From Comamonadaceae bacterium (GTDB taxonomy: Bacteria > Pseudomonadota > Gammaproteobacteria > Burkholderiales > Burkholderiaceae_C): 64,000 nucleotides of DNA. Below are positions 7,435 to 41,294 of the stretch, one piece after another. Made by a program: the position numbers and the translations under genes. The notes under the pieces were generated by a model, which saw only the letters and a list, made by a program, of their open reading frames with translations, had not been told where the DNA came from and searched no databases. The stretch is taken from the NCBI GenBank assembly GCA_947450645.1, contig CANFWH010000003.1, positions 1 through 64,000 of the forward strand, given 5' to 3'. Within the stretch, counting starts at the first letter, position 1. Each line of letters opens with the position of its first letter.

Positions 7435-8469
7435 ATGTATATCAAAAACGCTTGGTACGTTGCCTGCACACCCAATGAGATAGACGATAAGCCGCTAGGG
7501 CGAAAAATATGTGGTGAATCCGTCGTGCTGTATCGAGGCATGGAAGGACGTGTTGCTGCTGTCGAAGACTATTGCCCGCATCGCGGTGCACCGCTCTCTT
7601 TGGGGCAGGTGATTGAGGGGCAGTTAGTGTGCGGCTACCACGGTCTTGAGATGGGCTGCGACGGCAAAGCGGTCTCTATGCCAGGCCAGAGAGTACGGGG
7701 CTTCCCATCCATTCGCAGTTTTGCAGTTGTCGAGCGCTATGGCTTTATTTGGATTTGGATGGGAGCAGCGGAAGCAGCAGATCCATCCACCATTCACAAT
7801 CTTCACTGGGCGGATAGCCCTGATTGGGCTTACGGCGGAGGCCTCTTTCACATCAATTGCGACTATCGCTTGATGATTGATAACCTGATGGATTTGACGC
7901 ATGAAACTTATGTCCACGCCACCAGTATTGGTCAAAAAGAAATTGACGAAACCCCCAGCAGCACACGCGTGGAAGGCGACAGAGTGATTACGAGCCGTTT
8001 TATGAATGGCATTGAAGCACCACCGTTTTGGAAGATGGCGCTGCGCGGCAACAACCTACCAGACAGTCAACCCGTTGATCGGTGGCAAATTTGCAATTTT
8101 TCACCGCCCAGCCATGTGATGATTGAAGTGGGCGTGGCGCTAGCAGGTCAGGGCGGCTATGACGCACCCGCAGACAAAAAAGCATCCAGCATCGTGGTCG
8201 ATTTCATCACGCCCGAATCAGAAACATCTATTTGGTATTTTTGGGGCATGGCACGCAATTTCAACGCGAAAGATAAAGCGCTCACTGCTGCCATTCGAGA
8301 AGGCCAAGGCAAAATCTTTGCCGAGGACTTGGCCATGTTAGAGCAGCAACAGCAAAACTTGCTGCGCCTGCCCACGCGTAAGGTGCTGAATCTCAATATC
8401 GATGAAGGCGGTGTGAAATCGCGCCGCGTGGTTGATCGGTTAATTGCGGCGGAGCAACTCATCGCATAG
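7435..8469 (+). CDS. Rieske non-haem iron O-demethylase oxygenase subunit, VanA-type
   Basis: A 344-residue oxygenase component of the vanillate O-demethylase (VanA)/toluenesulfonate monooxygenase/dicamba demethylase group. The Rieske [2Fe-2S] ligands are Cys47-His49 and Cys66-His69 (CPHRG, CGYHG). The mononuclear iron site is in NLMDLTHETYVH with His156 and His161. The start ATG follows an AAGGAAG site. No VanB-type reductase is encoded beside it, so electrons must come from an enzyme elsewhere. It abuts pobA tail to tail. Vanillate giving protocatechuate, or 4-methoxybenzoate giving 4-hydroxybenzoate for PobA, are the best guesses; the precise substrate cannot be read from the sequence. Confidence 0.85.
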   Translation: MYIKNAWYVACTPNEIDDKPLGRKICGESVVLYRGMEGRVAAVEDYCPHRGAPLSLGQVIEGQLVCGYHGLEMGCDGKAVSMPGQRVRGFPSIRSFAVVERYGFIWIWMGAAEAADPSTIHNLHWADSPDWAYGGGLFHINCDYRLMIDNLMDLTHETYVHATSIGQKEIDETPSSTRVEGDRVITSRFMNGIEAPPFWKMALRGNNLPDSQPVDRWQICNFSPPSHVMIEVGVALAGQGGYDAPADKKASSIVVDFITPESETSIWYFWGMARNFNAKDKALTAAIREGQGKIFAEDLAMLEQQQQNLLRLPTRKVLNLNIDEGGVKSRRVVDRLIAAEQLIA

Positions 8470-9654
8470 CTAGTGCGCAAGCCCCACATAGTTTTCGGTG
8501 ATGGATTGCAGTGCCGCTTCGGAATGGACAAGATAGTCCAGCTCTGCTTCTTGAATCTTTTGACCAAAGCCCTCTGTGTCGGGAAATTTATGCATCAGGC
8601 TGGTGAACCACCACGAAAAGCGTTCGGCATTCCACACGCGACGCAGACATCTAGCGGAGTAGTTATCAATACCCGCTTTCGATTTTTCTTGAAAATACTC
8701 GGAGATGGCTTGAGACAATACGTTCACATCACCCGCCGCTAAATTCAGTCCTTTTGCCCCTGTGGGCGGCACGATGTGCGCAGCATCACCCGCCAAGAAC
8801 ATCGAACCAAAGCGCATGGGGTCCGCCACAAAACTGCGCAGCGGTGCGATGCTTTTTTCTAGCGAAGGTCCTGTCACCAAACGCTTGGCGGCCTCGGGAT
8901 CGATGCGAGTTTTGAATTCAGCCCAAAAACGCTCGTCGCTCCAACTCTCTACTTTTTCATCAATGCCGCATTGGATGTAGTAACGGCTACGCGTCATTGA
9001 GCGCATCGAGGACAGCGCAAAACCTCGCTCGGTATTGGAGTAGGTGACTTCGTGATACACGGGCGGCGTATCCGACAGCACACCTAACCAGCCGAAGGGA
9101 TACACCTTCTCAAAGTTTTGGATAGCGCCTGTGGGCACGCTTGCGCGGCACACGCCGTGATAACCATCGCAGCCTGCAATGAAACGAGCTTTGATTTCCA
9201 TCGCCTCGCCGCCCTTGTTGAACGTGACACGCGGATGGTCGGTGTCGAAATCATGCACGGCCACGCTATCACCAGCTTCGTAAATCGTCTGTAGCCCAAG
9301 CCCTGCGCGGTGATCCATCAAGTCTTTGGTCACTTCTGTCTGTCCATAGATCGTCATGTGTTTGCCGCCTTGCCGATCGGCGATATTGATGCGGTGAAAC
9401 GCGTCTTTAAAAATCAACGCGAATGCGTTATGACGCAAACCCTCGCGCTGCATCCGCGCGCCCACGCCCGCGTAGTCCAGCAAATCGGTCGTACCTTGCT
9501 CCAGCACGCCTGCGCGAATGCGCGAGAGCACATAGTCGCCACTTTGGCGCTCAATGATGATGTGCTCGATGCCTGCTTTGTGTAAGAGCGCACCGAGTAA
9601 AAGACCTGATGGGCCTGCGCCAACAATGACGACTTGGGTAGAGAGTGTTTTCAT
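8470..9654 (-). CDS. pobA: 4-hydroxybenzoate 3-monooxygenase
   Basis: PobA is the FAD- and NAD(P)H-dependent cytoplasmic hydroxylase that turns 4-hydroxybenzoate into protocatechuate. The product is 394 residues, the standard length, with the FAD dinucleotide fold GAGPSGLLLG near the N-terminus, the DG-type motif GCDGYHGVCR, and the second FAD motif GDAAHIVPPTGAKGLNLA in the C-terminal half. I chose ATG 9652-9654 (MKTLSTQ) because it directly precedes the beta strand of the FAD fold. It diverges from an AraC-type regulator gene, the usual pobA-pobR/pobC arrangement. Its 3' end touches that of the VanA-like gene with no gap. Confidence 0.95.
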   Translation of the reverse strand: MKTLSTQVVIVGAGPSGLLLGALLHKAGIEHIIIERQSGDYVLSRIRAGVLEQGTTDLLDYAGVGARMQREGLRHNAFALIFKDAFHRINIADRQGGKHMTIYGQTEVTKDLMDHRAGLGLQTIYEAGDSVAVHDFDTDHPRVTFNKGGEAMEIKARFIAGCDGYHGVCRASVPTGAIQNFEKVYPFGWLGVLSDTPPVYHEVTYSNTERGFALSSMRSMTRSRYYIQCGIDEKVESWSDERFWAEFKTRIDPEAAKRLVTGPSLEKSIAPLRSFVADPMRFGSMFLAGDAAHIVPPTGAKGLNLAAGDVNVLSQAISEYFQEKSKAGIDNYSARCLRRVWNAERFSWWFTSLMHKFPDTEGFGQKIQEAELDYLVHSEAALQSITENYVGLAH

Positions 9655-34761: not shown

Positions 34762-35856
34762 TTACAATTTTTGCGCCTGCATAAAGCTATCGAATTTAGC
34801 TTCTGTAAAGCGGAACCAAAGATGTGAATCGGCGCGGAATTTAGAGAAGTCTGCGTAGATTTTTTTCCAATCTGGATTCGTATCATTCAACTCTTGATAA
34901 AGTGCCATCGCTTCTTTAAAAGCAGCCACCATCACATCATTCGGGAATGGACGCAGCTTAGTTCCCTTACCAACCAATTCTTTCAATGCAATCGGATTAC
35001 GAGCGTCATACTTGGCCTGCATATCGGTATGCGCATAAGCCGCCGCATTTTCGACAATGGCTTTATTTTCGGGCGACAACGCAGCATACGCTTTTTGATT
35101 CACGTACAAATCTAATTGCGGGCCACCTTCCCACCAACCAGGATAGTAATAATACGGCGCTACTTTATTGAAGCCTAATTTTTGGTCATCGTAAGGACCC
35201 ACCCATTCACAAGCATCAATCGTTCCTTTTTCTAGAGCTGTATAGATCTCGCCGCCTGGGATATTGGCAGGAATCACTCCCAAACGAGCAATCGCTTTAC
35301 CAGGAAATCCACCAGTACGGAATTTCAAACCTTTAAGGTCTTTGACCGACTTAATTTCTTTGCGAAACCAGCCACCCATTTGAGCGCCCGTATTCCCCAT
35401 AGGGAAATTGATCATGTTGTACTTGGCATAAAACTCCCGCATCAGTGTGAGGCCATTGCCTTGGTACATCCAAGCCGTCATTTGGCGACTATTTAGACCA
35501 AATGGAATTGCGCATCCTAAAGCAAAAACGTCGTTTTTGCCAAAGAAGTAATAAGGCGCGGTATGGGCGCACTCAACTGATCCTTGTTGCACCGCATCAA
35601 CCACACCAAACGGAGGGGTAATTTCCCCAGCCGCATGAGTTGAAATTTCAAACTTCCCACCCGACATAGCGTTGACATGTTTGGCGAATACTTCAGCAGC
35701 GCCATAGATAGTATCGAGTGCTTTAGGAAAACTTGACGATAAACGCCAACGCACAGCCGCTTGCGCGTGCACTGCAGGCGCAATACCTGCGGCCAAGATA
35801 CCAACTAAACCAGCGCCAGTCGTGCTTGCGCCAGCGATAAGAGAACGACGATCCAT
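34762..35856 (-). CDS. TRAP transporter substrate-binding protein, DctP-type
   Basis: A 364-residue periplasmic protein with a twin-arginine-like leader (DRRSLIAGASTTGAGLVG, cut near VHA) and the DctP-family core: WRLSSSFPKALDTIYGAAEVFA, the conserved LKGLKFRTGGFPGKAIARLG (carboxylate-binding Arg region) and ALEKGTIDACEWVGP. This subgroup is the one annotated as mannitol/chloroaromatic compound binding; the ligand here is unknown. It most likely serves the DctQM genes, though it is transcribed towards them from its own promoter instead of with them. Confidence 0.88.
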   Translation of the reverse strand: MDRRSLIAGASTTGAGLVGILAAGIAPAVHAQAAVRWRLSSSFPKALDTIYGAAEVFAKHVNAMSGGKFEISTHAAGEITPPFGVVDAVQQGSVECAHTAPYYFFGKNDVFALGCAIPFGLNSRQMTAWMYQGNGLTLMREFYAKYNMINFPMGNTGAQMGGWFRKEIKSVKDLKGLKFRTGGFPGKAIARLGVIPANIPGGEIYTALEKGTIDACEWVGPYDDQKLGFNKVAPYYYYPGWWEGGPQLDLYVNQKAYAALSPENKAIVENAAAYAHTDMQAKYDARNPIALKELVGKGTKLRPFPNDVMVAAFKEAMALYQELNDTNPDWKKIYADFSKFRADSHLWFRFTEAKFDSFMQAQKL

Positions 35857-35889: not shown

Positions 35890-36699
35890 CTAGAGATTTG
35901 CCGCAGTATTAACATGGGGGTTTTCCCCGTGTAAGAAAGCCAGCACCTGCGCGGCAAGCAACTCTCTATCATCATCTACGCAGATCATGTGGTAACTGTT
36001 TTCAAGCACCACAACGCGAGTTCTTGGTGCACCCATTCCTTTTTGTAGAGCATAGGCTGAGCGTAGACTTGAGAACTCGTCTTCGCGTGCATGCACAACG
36101 AGCGCATCAGCAGTCACGCGGGATAAACCCTTCAGGACACGACCCCGCAAACGATCCAGCTGCCAAATGCTTTGCAACGGCACCCAGCCGTAATGAAAAG
36201 CATCACCGCGTATAAACCGTTTTTTGACAATAGCACGTAACCGCACATTCTTGATGCCATAGGGTTCGTCTTCGGGAATACGGTAATTCCCACGCAGCAA
36301 AGGAATCACATAGTGCAGGTGCCTAAGCCAGTGATACCACGGCATGCCCCAGCCATCCAAAAACACGGTTGGCGCCAGCATCACTAACTTACCAAAATGA
36401 TTTTTGGATTGCGGTAATTTTTGCGCTTGTTCTTTCGCTAGTTCACACGCCAAAAGAGCGCCCATGCACATGCCAACCACGTGTACTGTTTGGTGTTTTT
36501 TTGCAACCTCTTGGTAAGCTGTTTGTACCGCTGACAGCCAGTCTTCCATCACCACGGTAGATAAGTGCTCAGCTCGCGTACCGTGACCTGGCAAGGTCAT
36601 CGCATAAGTTTTAAAACCTGCTTGTTCTAACTGCTTTGGGAGTCCGCCCAGCTCTAGAGGCGTACCACCAAGGCCATGAATGAGAAGCACGCCATCCAT
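35890..36699 (-). CDS. Alpha/beta hydrolase with cysteine nucleophile
   Basis: A 269-residue hydrolase of the carboxylesterase/monoglyceride-lipase type. The oxyanion motif HGLGGTP is near the start and the His motif NSYHMI has His237. The acid is probably Asp207 in REDEFS. The nucleophile elbow reads GMCMG, so Cys78 replaces the usual Ser (TGC codon at 36466-36468). Cys in this position is known in dienelactone hydrolases and PHA synthases and suits thioester chemistry. I placed the start at ATG 36697-36699, one codon after an in-frame TTG, with AAAGG upstream. It follows a ketosynthase and an ACP gene, so release or transfer of an ACP-bound acyl chain is a reasonable guess. Confidence 0.85.
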   Translation of the reverse strand: MDGVLLIHGLGGTPLELGGLPKQLEQAGFKTYAMTLPGHGTRAEHLSTVVMEDWLSAVQTAYQEVAKKHQTVHVVGMCMGALLACELAKEQAQKLPQSKNHFGKLVMLAPTVFLDGWGMPWYHWLRHLHYVIPLLRGNYRIPEDEPYGIKNVRLRAIVKKRFIRGDAFHYGWVPLQSIWQLDRLRGRVLKGLSRVTADALVVHAREDEFSSLRSAYALQKGMGAPRTRVVVLENSYHMICVDDDRELLAAQVLAFLHGENPHVNTAANL

Positions 36700-36703
36700 C
36701 AAT

Positions 36704-37939
36704 CTAAACCTTTACTGATTTAAAAATCAAAGACGCATTTGAGCCACCAAATGCAAACGAGTTCGATAAAACTGCCTCCATCTTAGATGCACGCGGCTTC
36801 GCACTTGCATTGATATTTGAACAGCGCACGTCAAGTGGGTCGCATCCAACTGTCGCTGGCGTCGTTTGGGACTGCAAGCTTGCCACGCAAACGGCTGCTT
36901 CGACCGCCCCCGCAGCGCCCAGCAAATGCCCGTGCATCGACTTCGTTGCCGTCACAGGCGGCATGCCTTGGATACCAAACACATCAGCAATCGCTTCAGT
37001 TTCCACCACATCTCCCGTATCGGTCCCTGTCGCATGTGCATTCAAGCTATCAATATTAGATGGCTGCAAAGCCGCGTCAGATAAGGCTTCGCGCATGGCG
37101 CGTACTTGGCCATGCCGTGCGGGTTGGACCAAGGATGTCGCGTCACAAGTACTAGCATAACCCGCAATTTCTGCAAGTGGCACGGCGCCGCGCCGTTGTG
37201 CATGTGCTTTGCTCTCCAATACAAAAGCTGCCGCGCCCTCGCCAATCACAAGACCAGAGCGCTCACTTGAAAACGGCCTGCATGGCATCCTATGATCCAC
37301 TGTATTGCTGCGCGTGGCCATCACTTTAAGTGCACCCCACGCCGTCATCACGCCAGGCACAAGCATCGCTTCTGCGCCGCCCACAACCGCGACGTCGAGT
37401 CGTCCTGCGCGAATCGCCCACATCGCCTCGCCTAGAGCAATAGCTGATGATGCACAGGCCACGCTATAAGTTTGATTGGTACCCTGCAAACCATACTTCA
37501 AGGCAATCGATGCGGCTGCGGCATTGGCCATGATACGCACCACCGTCATCGGCCGCAGCGCAGCACGATCCAGCAAAAGGCGCTGATACGTGGACTCCGC
37601 CGTATCCAACCCACCCATCCCCGTCCCCCAATAAACACCCGCACGCTCGGGCTTTGCCAAAGACTGTAGCCCTGCTTGCAGCCACGCTTGATGCGCCGCA
37701 GCTAGCGCCATCGCGGTTGCACGGTCGGTTGAAATGGTCTCAAATTTTTTAAGCTCTAGCTCCGCCGCGCCATCAAGGCGCGCCATAAAAGCATCAGGAG
37801 CCCCCTTATAAGCGGGCCACGAGACTGGCGCCGTCATAAACACAGAGCGGGGCTGCCGCACGGCTTGCAAGATGGAGTCGAATCCTGAACCCATATTTGT
37901 CAGGCTACCAACGCCCGTGATCCACACCTCGTTAGACAT
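36704..37939 (-). CDS. Beta-ketoacyl-ACP synthase (FabF/KAS II-like)
   Basis: A 411-residue thiolase-fold condensing enzyme. The catalytic Cys162 lies in SVACASSAIALG, His302 in NAHATGTDTGD and His338 in KSMHGHLLGA, so the Cys-His-His triad of elongating ketosynthases is complete. It resembles FabF but is more divergent than a housekeeping copy (e.g. VWGALKVMATRSN region). It sits between an ACP gene (10 bp upstream) and the Cys-hydrolase gene (4 bp downstream), forming a small dedicated acyl-chain module behind dxs. Confidence 0.88.
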   Translation of the reverse strand: MSNEVWITGVGSLTNMGSGFDSILQAVRQPRSVFMTAPVSWPAYKGAPDAFMARLDGAAELELKKFETISTDRATAMALAAAHQAWLQAGLQSLAKPERAGVYWGTGMGGLDTAESTYQRLLLDRAALRPMTVVRIMANAAAASIALKYGLQGTNQTYSVACASSAIALGEAMWAIRAGRLDVAVVGGAEAMLVPGVMTAWGALKVMATRSNTVDHRMPCRPFSSERSGLVIGEGAAAFVLESKAHAQRRGAVPLAEIAGYASTCDATSLVQPARHGQVRAMREALSDAALQPSNIDSLNAHATGTDTGDVVETEAIADVFGIQGMPPVTATKSMHGHLLGAAGAVEAAVCVASLQSQTTPATVGCDPLDVRCSNINASAKPRASKMEAVLSNSFAFGGSNASLIFKSVKV

Positions 37940-37949
37940 ATTCGTTAGG

Positions 37950-38195
37950 TTACTTTTGATGCGATTCGATGAGGGTCATTAACTCGCCAAAGCTTGAGGG
38001 CACCGCATCAGACGCCACATCGCCTAAATTGATTTTGAATTCATCTTCAATCGAAAACAAAAGTTCAGCAGTCGCCAAAGAATCAAGCCCCGCATCGGCC
38101 AAGCTAGTCGAGAGCGTAACCTTAGACACATCAAGGTGGTATTGCTGGGCAATGATGGCAAGCAGCTTATCGAAGGTGGCGTTTGGCAATGTCAT
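37950..38195 (-). CDS. Acyl carrier protein
   Basis: An 81-residue four-helix carrier with the phosphopantetheine site DSL (Ser39) in DAGLDSLATAELLFSIEDEF. It is clearly different from a housekeeping AcpP, which has the invariant DSLDxVEL. It would be modified by a 4'-phosphopantetheinyl transferase encoded elsewhere. It follows dxs by 7 bp and precedes the ketosynthase by 10 bp, so the carrier and synthase probably work as a pair. Confidence 0.9.
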   Translation of the reverse strand: MTLPNATFDKLLAIIAQQYHLDVSKVTLSTSLADAGLDSLATAELLFSIEDEFKINLGDVASDAVPSSFGELMTLIESHQK

Positions 38196-38202
38196 ACTTT
38201 GA

Positions 38203-40125
38203 TTATCGCTTGCAGATTGTTTCTATGAAGAAGTGTAAAGATGCGGAAATACCCTTAGCATCCAAGCCCTGCATCGCCATCAAAACTGCGGGATCGCCGT
38301 GCTCAATAAATGAATCTGACAAACCCAATACCAGCGTGGGTTTTCGGACATCTTTCCTAGATAGACATTCTAAAACAGCACTGCCTGCCCCGCCCTCTTT
38401 TGCACCGTCTTCCACGGTCACGATAGCGTCGTGCGTAGTCGCAATCTCTAGCAAGAGCGTCTCATCTAACGGCTTGGCCCAACGCATATTCACGACCGTA
38501 GCATCTACAATTTCGGCGGCTTCAAGAGCGGGATAAAGCAGCGTACCAAACGCAAGAATGGCGATGCGTTTGCCCGAGCCTTGCTCGTGATTCGATTTCC
38601 GCCGCACCTCGCCCTTGCCATACGGGAGCGCCTCTAAATGCTTAGGGATCACCACGCCTACGCCCGCGCCGCGTGGATAACGCACCGCCACAGGATGCGA
38701 TTGCTCAAAAGCCGTGCTGAGCAGGGCTCGGCATTCAGCCTCATCTGCAGGGCATGCAATGCCGACGTTAGGAATGCAGCGCAAAAATGCAATGTCATAA
38801 GCGCCGCAGTGCGTTGCACCATCCGCGCCCACGACCCCCGCACGGTCTAGCGCAAATACCACGGGCAAATTTTGAATCGCCACATCGTGAATCAGCTGGT
38901 CGTACGCACGCTGTAAAAACGTGGAATAAATGGCAACGACGGGCTTGAGACCTTCGCACGCAAGACCCGCAGCAAACGTCACCGCGTGCTGCTCAGCAAT
39001 GCCCACATCAAAATATCGATCAGGAAAGCGGTGCTCAAACGGCGCGAGCCCTGAGCCCTCGCGCATGGCGGGTGTGATGCCGATCAAACGCGCGTCTTTC
39101 TCGGCCATATCGCACAGCCACTGCCCAAAGACGCTTGTAAACGTTGGCTTAGGCGGCGATGTGGATTTTTTAAGTCCCTCTACAGGATCAAATTTTCCTG
39201 GTCCGTGATACGCCACAGGGTCGGCCTCGGCCAGCTTATAGCCTTGACCTTTTTTAGTGACCACATGCAAAAACTGAGGACCCGCGCCATCGCTTGATAG
39301 TTGCTTGATATTTTCTAAAGTTGGAATGAGCGAATCAAGATCGTGACCATCAATAGGGCCGATGTAATTGAGTCCAAAATTTTCAAACAAATTAGCAGGA
39401 ACGACCATGCCCTTCATTTGTTTTTCAAAGCGCTTGGCCGCCGCAAACAGTGGCGGTGCAACTTGTAACACCGCCTTGCCCACGTGCTTGGCGCCCGCGT
39501 AAAACTTGCCACTCATGAGTTGCGCCAAATAGCGATTCAGAGCGCCAACGGCAGGGCTAATACTCATGTCGTTGTCATTCAAAATCACAATCAAACGGCA
39601 CATCTCAACACCCGCGTTATTGAGCGCTTCAAACGCCATGCCTGCCGAGAGTGCGCCATCACCAATCACGGCAATTGAAAATGGCTCATCGTGCGGTAAG
39701 CCTTGTGCGGCGGCACTTTTCGCTTGTAGCTTCGCGGCAACGGCCATCCCCAGCGCAGCCGAAATCGACGTACTGGAATGTGCCGTCCCAAACGCGTCGT
39801 ACTCGCTCTCTGCTCGCTGCGGAAAACCCGACAAACCGCCCAACTGACGCAGTGTGTCCATGCGATCTCTGCGTCCCGTCAAAATTTTATGCGGATAGGT
39901 TTGATGCCCCACGTCCCACACAATGCGATCTTTAGGCGTATTGAACACTTTGTGCAGTGCCACCGTTAGCTCGACCGTACCTAAGTTTGAACTTAAATGC
40001 CCCCCCGTTTTAGAGACGCTTTGCAGCACAAACTCGCGTAGCTCGTTCGCCAAAGTTTTTAGCTCGGCACGCTCTAATTTGCGCAGATCAACGGGGTCGT
40101 TAATTGTTTTTAGTAAATCACTCAT
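38203..40125 (-). CDS. dxs: 1-deoxy-D-xylulose-5-phosphate synthase
   Basis: Dxs joins pyruvate and glyceraldehyde 3-phosphate, with thiamine diphosphate, in the first step of the MEP isoprenoid pathway. The 640-residue protein has the TPP site [20 protein letters not shown] with NDNDMS, the transketolase pyrimidine domain starting [11 protein letters not shown], the glutamate in [17 protein letters not shown], and the C-terminal domain. It is intact and 21 bp downstream of ispA, in a xseB-ispA-dxs order common in proteobacteria. Confidence 0.97.
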
Positions 40126-40146: not shown

Positions 40147-41058
40147 CTACGATTGTCGCCGCACCAACCGAATTGCCAATTCGCGCAGCGCGGCATCAGC
40201 CTCTAAACCGCACGCATCAAGGGCGACCAGCGCTTTTTCAAGTAGCTCATTGGCGTATGTTTCAGCCGCCTCCAGCCCCATCAGCGCCACATAGGTTGGC
40301 TTGTTTTGCGCCGCATCTTTTCCCGCAGTTTTGCCAAGTGTGGCTTCGTCCGCAGTGACATCCAAAATGTCGTCCACCACTTGGAAAGCCAAACCCACAG
40401 CGGCGCCGTACGCTGCCAAACTGGCCTGTAGGCCATATGGCATATGGCTTGCACGAGTGCCGTTTTGCACATGGCAGGCAGCACCCATTTCTACAGATGC
40501 TTTAAGTAATGCGCCCGTTTTAAGCTCATGCATACGTCTAAGTTCAGATTCAGTCAGACTTTTACCCACACTCGCCAAATCAATCGCTTGCCCGCCTGCC
40601 ATGCCCTCGGAGCCCGAAGCACGCGCAAGCAATCGGCACAACTTGGCTTGCACAGCGCTAGGAATTTCGTCCTTATCTGGCGTCAAAATTTCAAACGCTA
40701 GCGCTTGCAGCGCATCACCTGCGAGCAGCGCTTGAGCCTCACCATATGCCACATGGACAGTAGGTTTGCCACGTCTCAAGACATCGTTATCCATGCACGG
40801 CATGTCGTCGTGGATCAGCGAATACGCATGGATCATCTCGACGGCGCAAGCAGCCCGAAGGGCGGCATCGAAATTGCCACTCACGGCCTCGCTCGCGGCC
40901 AATACCAGCAAGGCTCGCAGCCGCTTACCTCCTCCCAAAGCCCCGTAGCGCATGGCCTCGCCAAGGTTAGCGGGCGAGTGTGCATCAATCAATCGATCCA
41001 GCGTTTGCTCTACTTGGACGAGACTCGCCGCTCGCCACACTTCAAAATCAAAGGTCAT
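40147..41058 (-). CDS. ispA: Farnesyl diphosphate synthase (polyprenyl synthetase)
   Basis: A 303-residue trans-prenyltransferase making farnesyl diphosphate from IPP and DMAPP. The first Asp-rich motif is [10 protein letters not shown] and the second VVDDILD. The FARM region upstream (EMIHAYSLI) has Tyr/Ser typical of C15-producing enzymes. The start is ATG 41056-41058 (MTFDFEVW), overlapping the xseB stop as ATGA; a longer reading into xseB is not supported. Confidence 0.94.
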
Positions 41059-41294
41059 TGAACGCCCTGCCAAGGTTTGAGTTGTCCGTTATCAATCACG
41101 CTGATCTGTTGCTCGAGTGCTTGTAATTTGCTTTGACAAAAATGCAGCAAAAACGCACCGCGCCGATAACTGGTGAGTAATTGGTCGAGTGGCAACTGCG
41201 CGGACTCCATTTGACGCACAAGTGCATCCAGCTCGGTAGCAGCGGCTTCGTAGCTGACAGGCGTGATTGCAGTCTCATCATTTTTTTTAGGCAT
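41055..41294 (-). CDS. xseB: Exodeoxyribonuclease VII small subunit
   Basis: The 79-residue small subunit of ExoVII, with the family core [31 protein letters not shown]. It forms a helical complex with several XseA-bound copies. xseA is elsewhere. It is the first gene of the isoprenoid unit and diverges from a Rieske oxygenase gene across 51 bp. Confidence 0.93.

Follow-up and report, generated by a model that had tools for sequence, protein, structure and literature searches.

Three adjacent genes of the window (the whole 64-kb stretch of DNA analysed here) appear to form a dedicated module that builds acyl chains on an ACP and whose off-loading enzyme is exchangeable, being in the window a putative Cys thioesterase of monoacylglycerol-lipase fold; on the sequence evidence set out below, we consider this reading reasonably probable. 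The ORFs for the ACP, the beta-ketoacyl-ACP synthase (KS) and the hydrolase all lie on the minus strand directly after dxs; an earlier note on this DNA had pointed out the three genes and their attachment to the dxs operon. The module and its neighbours are as follows:

37950..38195, minus strand: dedicated ACP of 81 aa, with a DSL motif containing Ser39 (PF00550, 38.5 bits, cut-off 20.8)
36704..37939, minus strand: FabF-like KS of 411 aa, with Cys162, His302 and His338 (PF00109/PF02801), in a clade apart from FabF
35890..36699, minus strand: alpha/beta hydrolase of 269 aa from the ATG, monoacylglycerol-lipase fold, GMCMG elbow, Cys78-Asp207-His237 (PF12146/PF12697)
38203..40125, minus strand: dxs, upstream neighbour of the ACP gene (TIGR00204, above cut-off)
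34762..35856, minus strand: TRAP solute-binding protein (PF03480), bounding the slot downstream and conserved in congeners
40147..41073, minus strand: ispA, farnesyl diphosphate synthase, given for context (NF045485, above cut-off)

The order on the minus strand is thus xseB, ispA, dxs, ACP, KS, hydrolase and the TRAP gene. The hydrolase ORF read from a TTG spans 35890-36702, its likely start being the ATG at 36699, which is separated from the KS stop by 4 bases; residues Cys78, Asp207 and His237 are given in ATG numbering and are one higher in TTG numbering. A script check confirmed the residues described earlier, namely the GMCMG nucleophile elbow with Cys78 and the retained Asp207 and His237 of the triad, Ser39 in the DSL of the ACP, and Cys162, His302 and His338 of the KS, which also has Lys333. 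The genome (2.47 Mb, 94% complete) contains one match to its own hydrolase at E<=0.001 and one other FabF-like KS, the remaining ketoacyl-synthase matches being short and weak; we read these as thiolases. No Rfam family reached its gathering score anywhere in the 64-kb window.

Its recurrence in other genera and families makes the trio more than a chance association, which bears out the three-gene acyl module of the earlier note as real. In the family sample, the hydrolase was found in 42 of the 200 genomes searched (E<=1e-20). Forty wide loci were read besides that of the window (G148 was left out), and in 21 of them, as in the window, no more than 3 kb separated KS and hydrolase; all 21 also had an ACP match, in varied surroundings. 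A MASE1 gene was found in two of the 40, and 17 had neither a KS nor MASE1 nearby. In an order-wide sample of 250 genomes, for which HMMs were built from the sequences already collected, the hydrolase occurred in 51 genomes at 59 places (E<=1e-30), 55 of which were read, leaving out the window, G020 and G088 (both already collected) and G699 (a contig-end fragment). Hydrolase, ACP and KS lay on one strand within 600 bp in 28 of these 55 loci (28 genomes, 14 families); the count was also run on 57 loci, two of which came from the class sample and lack a KS. Gene calls were crude in GC-rich loci. Only the three genes of the trio were common to all 28 loci (antisense frames left out), the next most shared neighbours being histidine-kinase-like and response-regulator-like proteins, which are generic protein families (6 of 28 loci, in 6 families); other neighbours were shared mostly within one family. 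The kinase- and regulator-like pair lies near the trio, in varying orientation, in L237, L245, L252, L256, L266 and L285. Across the class the hydrolase is rare, occurring in 3 of 274 genomes, the window's own included. Five genomes of family f208 (L261, L262, L269, L271 and L272) carry, besides the trio hydrolase, a second Cys copy without ACP-KS in the DNA examined.

The KS of the trio is set apart from that of housekeeping fatty acid synthesis. When 68 KSs were placed in one tree, the 60 from modules were separated from the 8 FabF as a single clade (100/100). A second tree, of 43 KSs, was built with a hand-picked subset of the first (25 of its 60 module KSs and 3 of its 8 FabF); here too the 25 fall in one clade (100/100), apart from 18 other KSs, among which are the FabF of the window genome and further KSs of the same order genomes. 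In all eight order genomes checked, the trio KS was the best match (40-46%), with other FabF-like KSs (28-38%) elsewhere in the genome. Although the window KS carries the Cys-His-His catalytic set of FabF (KAS II), it does not group with housekeeping FabF and falls below the cut-off of the fabF equivalog model (TIGR03150, 326.5 bits vs 493.75); the ACP likewise falls below that of the acyl_carrier equivalog, for FAS AcpP (TIGR00517, 39.4 bits vs 70.45). The FabF subfamily model PRK07314 does accept two trio KSs from elsewhere, those of L238 and L265. Judging from these trees and matches, the trio KS is a dedicated paralogue of its own, distinct from housekeeping FabF. Pairwise distances of KS and hydrolase agree closely across 50 trios (Mantel r 0.853, with none of 2000 permutations as high), so that the two proteins co-evolve, in support of the acyl module put forward earlier.

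A comparable arrangement is that of NodF and NodE, a dedicated ACP and KS pair for a special acyl chain. The window module too has a separate ACP and a FabF-like KS beside the housekeeping FAS, but differs from NodF/NodE in having a third gene, either hydrolase or reductase (the NodF/NodE pair is treated in a part of PMC4618531).

It is this third gene that varies among the closest relatives. Of 399 family genomes, 8 contain a close relative of the window KS (E<=1e-105), accompanied in every case by a matching ACP, and the third gene was a hydrolase in three of them, with Cys in the window and in G155 and with Ser in G019 (L040). The other five (G132, G047, G012, G164 and G237) have instead a reductase-like gene of the NAD_binding_4 type for a protein of ca. 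367 aa. Three of these proteins were scanned, all matching NAD_binding_4; GxxGxxG and YxxxK motifs are present in the two that were checked, and the proteins are 65-86% identical to that of L161. The third gene of the window's congener scored 90.5 bits with PF07993 (cut-off 20.1) and far below the cut-off of TIGR01746 (65.7 bits vs 213.35), and the best PDB kin of this protein from G237 are reductive-release domains such as MxaA. The proteins thus resemble thioester reductase R domains, such as that of MxaA (PDB 4u7w), in their NAD_binding_4 and structure matches; in contrast with R domains, the congener's protein is stand-alone, of ca. 367 aa and below the TIGR01746 cut-off, and lies beside a discrete ACP and KS.

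Within the genus of the window, the exchange occurs at a single slot, dxs-ACP-KS-X-TRAP, where the window and G155 have the Cys hydrolase as X, and G237 has the reductase-like gene, between the KS and the TRAP gene. In a further congener, G029, there is no module and 78 bases separate dxs from the TRAP gene that comes next (L170, 4827-7913); the contig of G305 ends just past dxs, so that the slot falls outside its sequence. Four of the five close KS relatives outside the genus have the reductase-like third gene, and reductase and KS show similar divergence (65-68% vs 57-60%, L159 to L160-L163), so they were probably inherited together. By these relatives the reductase looks ancestral in this KS clade. 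Within the genus, the KS trees pair the window with the reductase-bearing congener G237 (92/49; 99/71 in the tree of 68 KSs; 99/90 in that of 43), whereas the FabF of the window groups with that of G155 (100/91), and because of this disagreement the swap may have gone either way. If the reading given here is true, hydrolase, reductase and nothing at one chromosomal slot are a natural series differing only in the last step, and release chemistry would be testable by simple gene exchange; the different third genes of close relatives hint at a modular making of different small lipids. A second recurrent slot was observed beside glnE, which is on one side of the module in six of six loci (L160-L163, L040 and L060, the last a more distant trio); in L160-L163 and L060 the opposite flank holds an outer-membrane efflux protein.

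The ACP of such a module would carry its pantetheine arm on Ser39 and receive malonyl through housekeeping enzymes, and the KS, with its intact Cys-His-His set, would take an acyl primer onto Cys162 and condense it with malonyl-ACP. Release of the chain would come next, whether or not housekeeping FabG/FabZ/FabI had processed it. In the window, Cys78 of the hydrolase would attack the acyl-S-ACP thioester and transfer the chain to water, giving a free acid; in the congener, the thioester-reductase-like enzyme of the same slot would yield an aldehyde or alcohol. Off-loading to water by Cys78 is the simplest function to propose, because the ACP and the KS adjoin and because a reductase of the thioester-release type replaces the hydrolase in a congener, a swap that argues for the predicted action of the hydrolase on acyl-ACP. 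Like discrete off-loading and type II thioesterases, the window hydrolase is an alpha/beta hydrolase that stands on its own next to an ACP and a KS, but it belongs to a lipase-like branch of the fold and no other PKS parts were seen in its module.

The hydrolase might alternatively have an editing role, only clearing stalled or wrong acyl groups from the ACP in the manner of a type II thioesterase, with an unlinked enzyme taking the product. An acyltransferase-like FemAB/GNAT gene does follow the set in some relatives, as in L040 (ACP-KS-Hyd-GNAT) and L284 (HAD-AT-Hyd-ACP-KS-FemAB), so release may lie elsewhere. We nevertheless judge this role unlikely: the reductase that occupies this slot in a congener fits product release better, and no FemAB/GNAT homologue was found in the window genome at E<=1e-6, while 5 of 20 genomes have one. 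Genes of this kind belong to a wider set of neighbours. Among the 17 Ser-type or unclear loci with neither KS nor MASE1, an MtnX-like HAD phosphatase was present in 15 and a class-III aminotransferase in 11 within the DNA examined, and some of them also have EamA/SMR and FemAB-like genes. Ser hydrolases in such company were seen in L284 (2629-8321), L285 (2603-8272, from a genome of 1.3 Mb) and L034-L055, some of them with ACP and KS, and the combination of Ser form, phosphatase, aminotransferase, EamA/SMR and FemAB-like genes hints at N-acyl products in these relatives. A search at E<=1e-60 likewise gave no class-III aminotransferase for the window genome, and one for 1 of 18 genomes. With aminotransferase and FemAB/GNAT homologues both absent from the window genome at these thresholds, the aminotransferase cluster does not explain the window and was rejected as its explanation.

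The earlier note had taken the nucleophilic Cys as a mark of dienelactone hydrolases and PHA synthases that suits acyl transfer from thioesters, a reading that by its own account Ser homologues in the same context would overturn. Trio hydrolases have Cys in 38 and Ser in 12 of 50 cases, in the same ACP-KS context, and a pair of sisters differ in this residue (L052 Cys, L057 Ser), which is the refuting case that the note had named. With Ser forms sitting in the same trio, Cys as a rule-like marker of thioester chemistry was rejected. Even so, trio hydrolases have Cys more often than do the hydrolases of the remaining loci (Fisher p 0.004 for the family sample and 0.0003 for the order sample, only a guide since the rows are related). 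At least five changes between Cys and Ser are needed on a tree of 113 hydrolases, for which every fifth of loci L072-L150 was taken, plus L071, and from which L031 and L032 were left out as identical in sequence to L071 and L085; L068, with neither residue at the aligned nucleophile column, does not enter the Cys and Ser counts. If the reading holds, a lipase-fold group with Cys/Ser interchange joins the few alpha/beta hydrolases with a known Cys nucleophile.

From the position of the module downstream of isoprenoid genes, the note had suggested a specialised acyl chain, perhaps that of an isoprenoid ester or a membrane lipid. Among the loci examined, however, dxs lies beside the module only in the window's genus, glnE takes that place in each of the five close KS relatives from outside the genus, and the congener G029 has dxs without the module; the isoprenoid idea was rejected, the adjacency being confined to one genus among these loci. 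The Cys enzyme could also be an acyltransferase, passing the chain to an alcohol or amine, for example an isoprenoid alcohol. PHA synthase is indeed named among Cys-triad enzymes in a section of PMC11878206, and the module forms one gene run with dxs and ispA in the window's genus; but the dxs linkage goes no further than this genus among the loci examined and Ser variants occupy the same context, and we regard acyl transfer as improbable. A route to pimelate and biotin, with ACP, KS and a BioH-like esterase, is very improbable and was rejected, the match to the BioH model being weak (23.3 bits vs a cut-off of 206.95) and without a tie to the module: BioC-like matches, all below cut-off, are alike in four congeners, including the module-less G029, and a reductase would be of no use for making pimelate.

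The predicted structure of the hydrolase has high confidence (pLDDT 92.3) and its top fold matches are lipases (VIA Z 30.1-31.1, rmsd 1.7-2.2 over 221-232 residues, best 13 matches), some of them solved with C12-C18 (lauroyl to stearoyl) glycerol analogues. The monoacylglycerol lipase of Bacillus sp. H257 matches over most of the length (VIA Z 31), with the Asp and His of the triad aligned; the window hydrolase differs from it in having Cys instead of Ser in the elbow, and in its ACP and KS context. The monoacylglycerol lipase fold is thus present and the serine of GXSXG is absent. A kinship to dienelactone hydrolases or PHA synthases, which the Cys might suggest, was not supported, since the nearest kin by both sequence and fold are monoacylglycerol lipases. 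The dienelactone hydrolase model PF01738 gave 21.2 bits (cut-off 21) over residues 51-95 only, and no PHA synthase model of Pfam or NCBIfam matched at E<=0.001. Dienelactone hydrolase, PhaZ and PHA synthase are the alpha/beta hydrolases with Cys triads named in section 2.7 of PMC11878206; the window hydrolase shares with them a Cys-Asp-His triad, but by Pfam and NCBIfam does not appear to belong to their families, and Cys and Ser interchange in its own.

The closest relatives of the window hydrolase are mostly found in another context. In the 113-hydrolase tree, the hydrolases of the window and L071 (G155) are sisters (100/99) within a clade of 27 rows (100/100), the rest of which are MASE1-linked or lone Cys hydrolases, and the hydrolases of other trios fall elsewhere. 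Another hydrolase tree, without L071, L085, L031 and L032, places the window beside, not inside, the MASE1-linked clade. Among the best 80 of at least 591 matches, the nearest relative is that of a Comamonadaceae MAG (L071). All 80 have Cys, which describes that subclade only; 76 have a MASE1-type protein directly upstream, three have neither partner and one is the congener, and in 79 there is no ACP or KS within up to 8 kb on each side. The window's subclade, usually MASE1-linked and without ACP-KS, may thus have another substrate elsewhere. Lipase-fold enzymes often act on esters. This distribution, together with the sequence and fold kinship to monoacylglycerol lipases, would suit an ester hydrolase unrelated to the ACP, that is, a monoacylglycerol or lysophospholipid lipase co-transcribed by chance. 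This is in our view rather unlikely, since adjacency of the trio extends over 14 families, hydrolase and KS co-evolve, and a thioester-reductase-like gene occupies the same slot.

Returning to the off-loading reading, the component kinds are already known: dedicated ACP-KS pairs (NodF/NodE), thioester reductases and discrete thioesterases. A literature search of open-licence papers found no description of the trio or of the exchange of its third gene. A wider and more tentative view, which we put forward with somewhat less than even confidence, is that exchanged off-loading enzymes (Cys hydrolase, Ser hydrolase or thioester reductase) on a dedicated ACP and KS clade constitute an undescribed system of the order. 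Cys thioesterases of lipase fold would be its common form, kept even in a genome of 1.3 Mb; the products would be acid, aldehyde or alcohol, perhaps N-acyl where aminotransferase, phosphatase and FemAB-like genes join, and the window hydrolase would have been recruited from the MASE1-linked family. If true, this points to a lipid product yet to be found in an abundant bacterial order.

The MASE1-linked loci are of interest in their own right. The 76 loci in which a MASE1-type membrane protein immediately precedes a Cys hydrolase with GMC[ML]G elbow lie among L072-L150 and come mostly from Burkholderiales, some from Neisseriales; an example is L072 (6644-7933, with the hydrolase at 8001-8738). 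The upstream gene was confirmed by Pfam as MASE1 in four loci, and in some loci its protein also has a PAS match. The two proteins are possibly a sensor-hydrolase pair, for which our literature search found no paper. No MASE1 match was found in the window genome, and PADLOC found no anti-phage defence match for the window hydrolase or for one MASE1 partner. Jeongeupia naejangsanensis (L124 and L126) has two Cys hydrolases of the window's subclade, one of them without a MASE1 match; in L126 the hydrolase stands alone, with no ACP or KS, and dxs-ispA-xseB lies ca. 3 kb away on the opposite strand.
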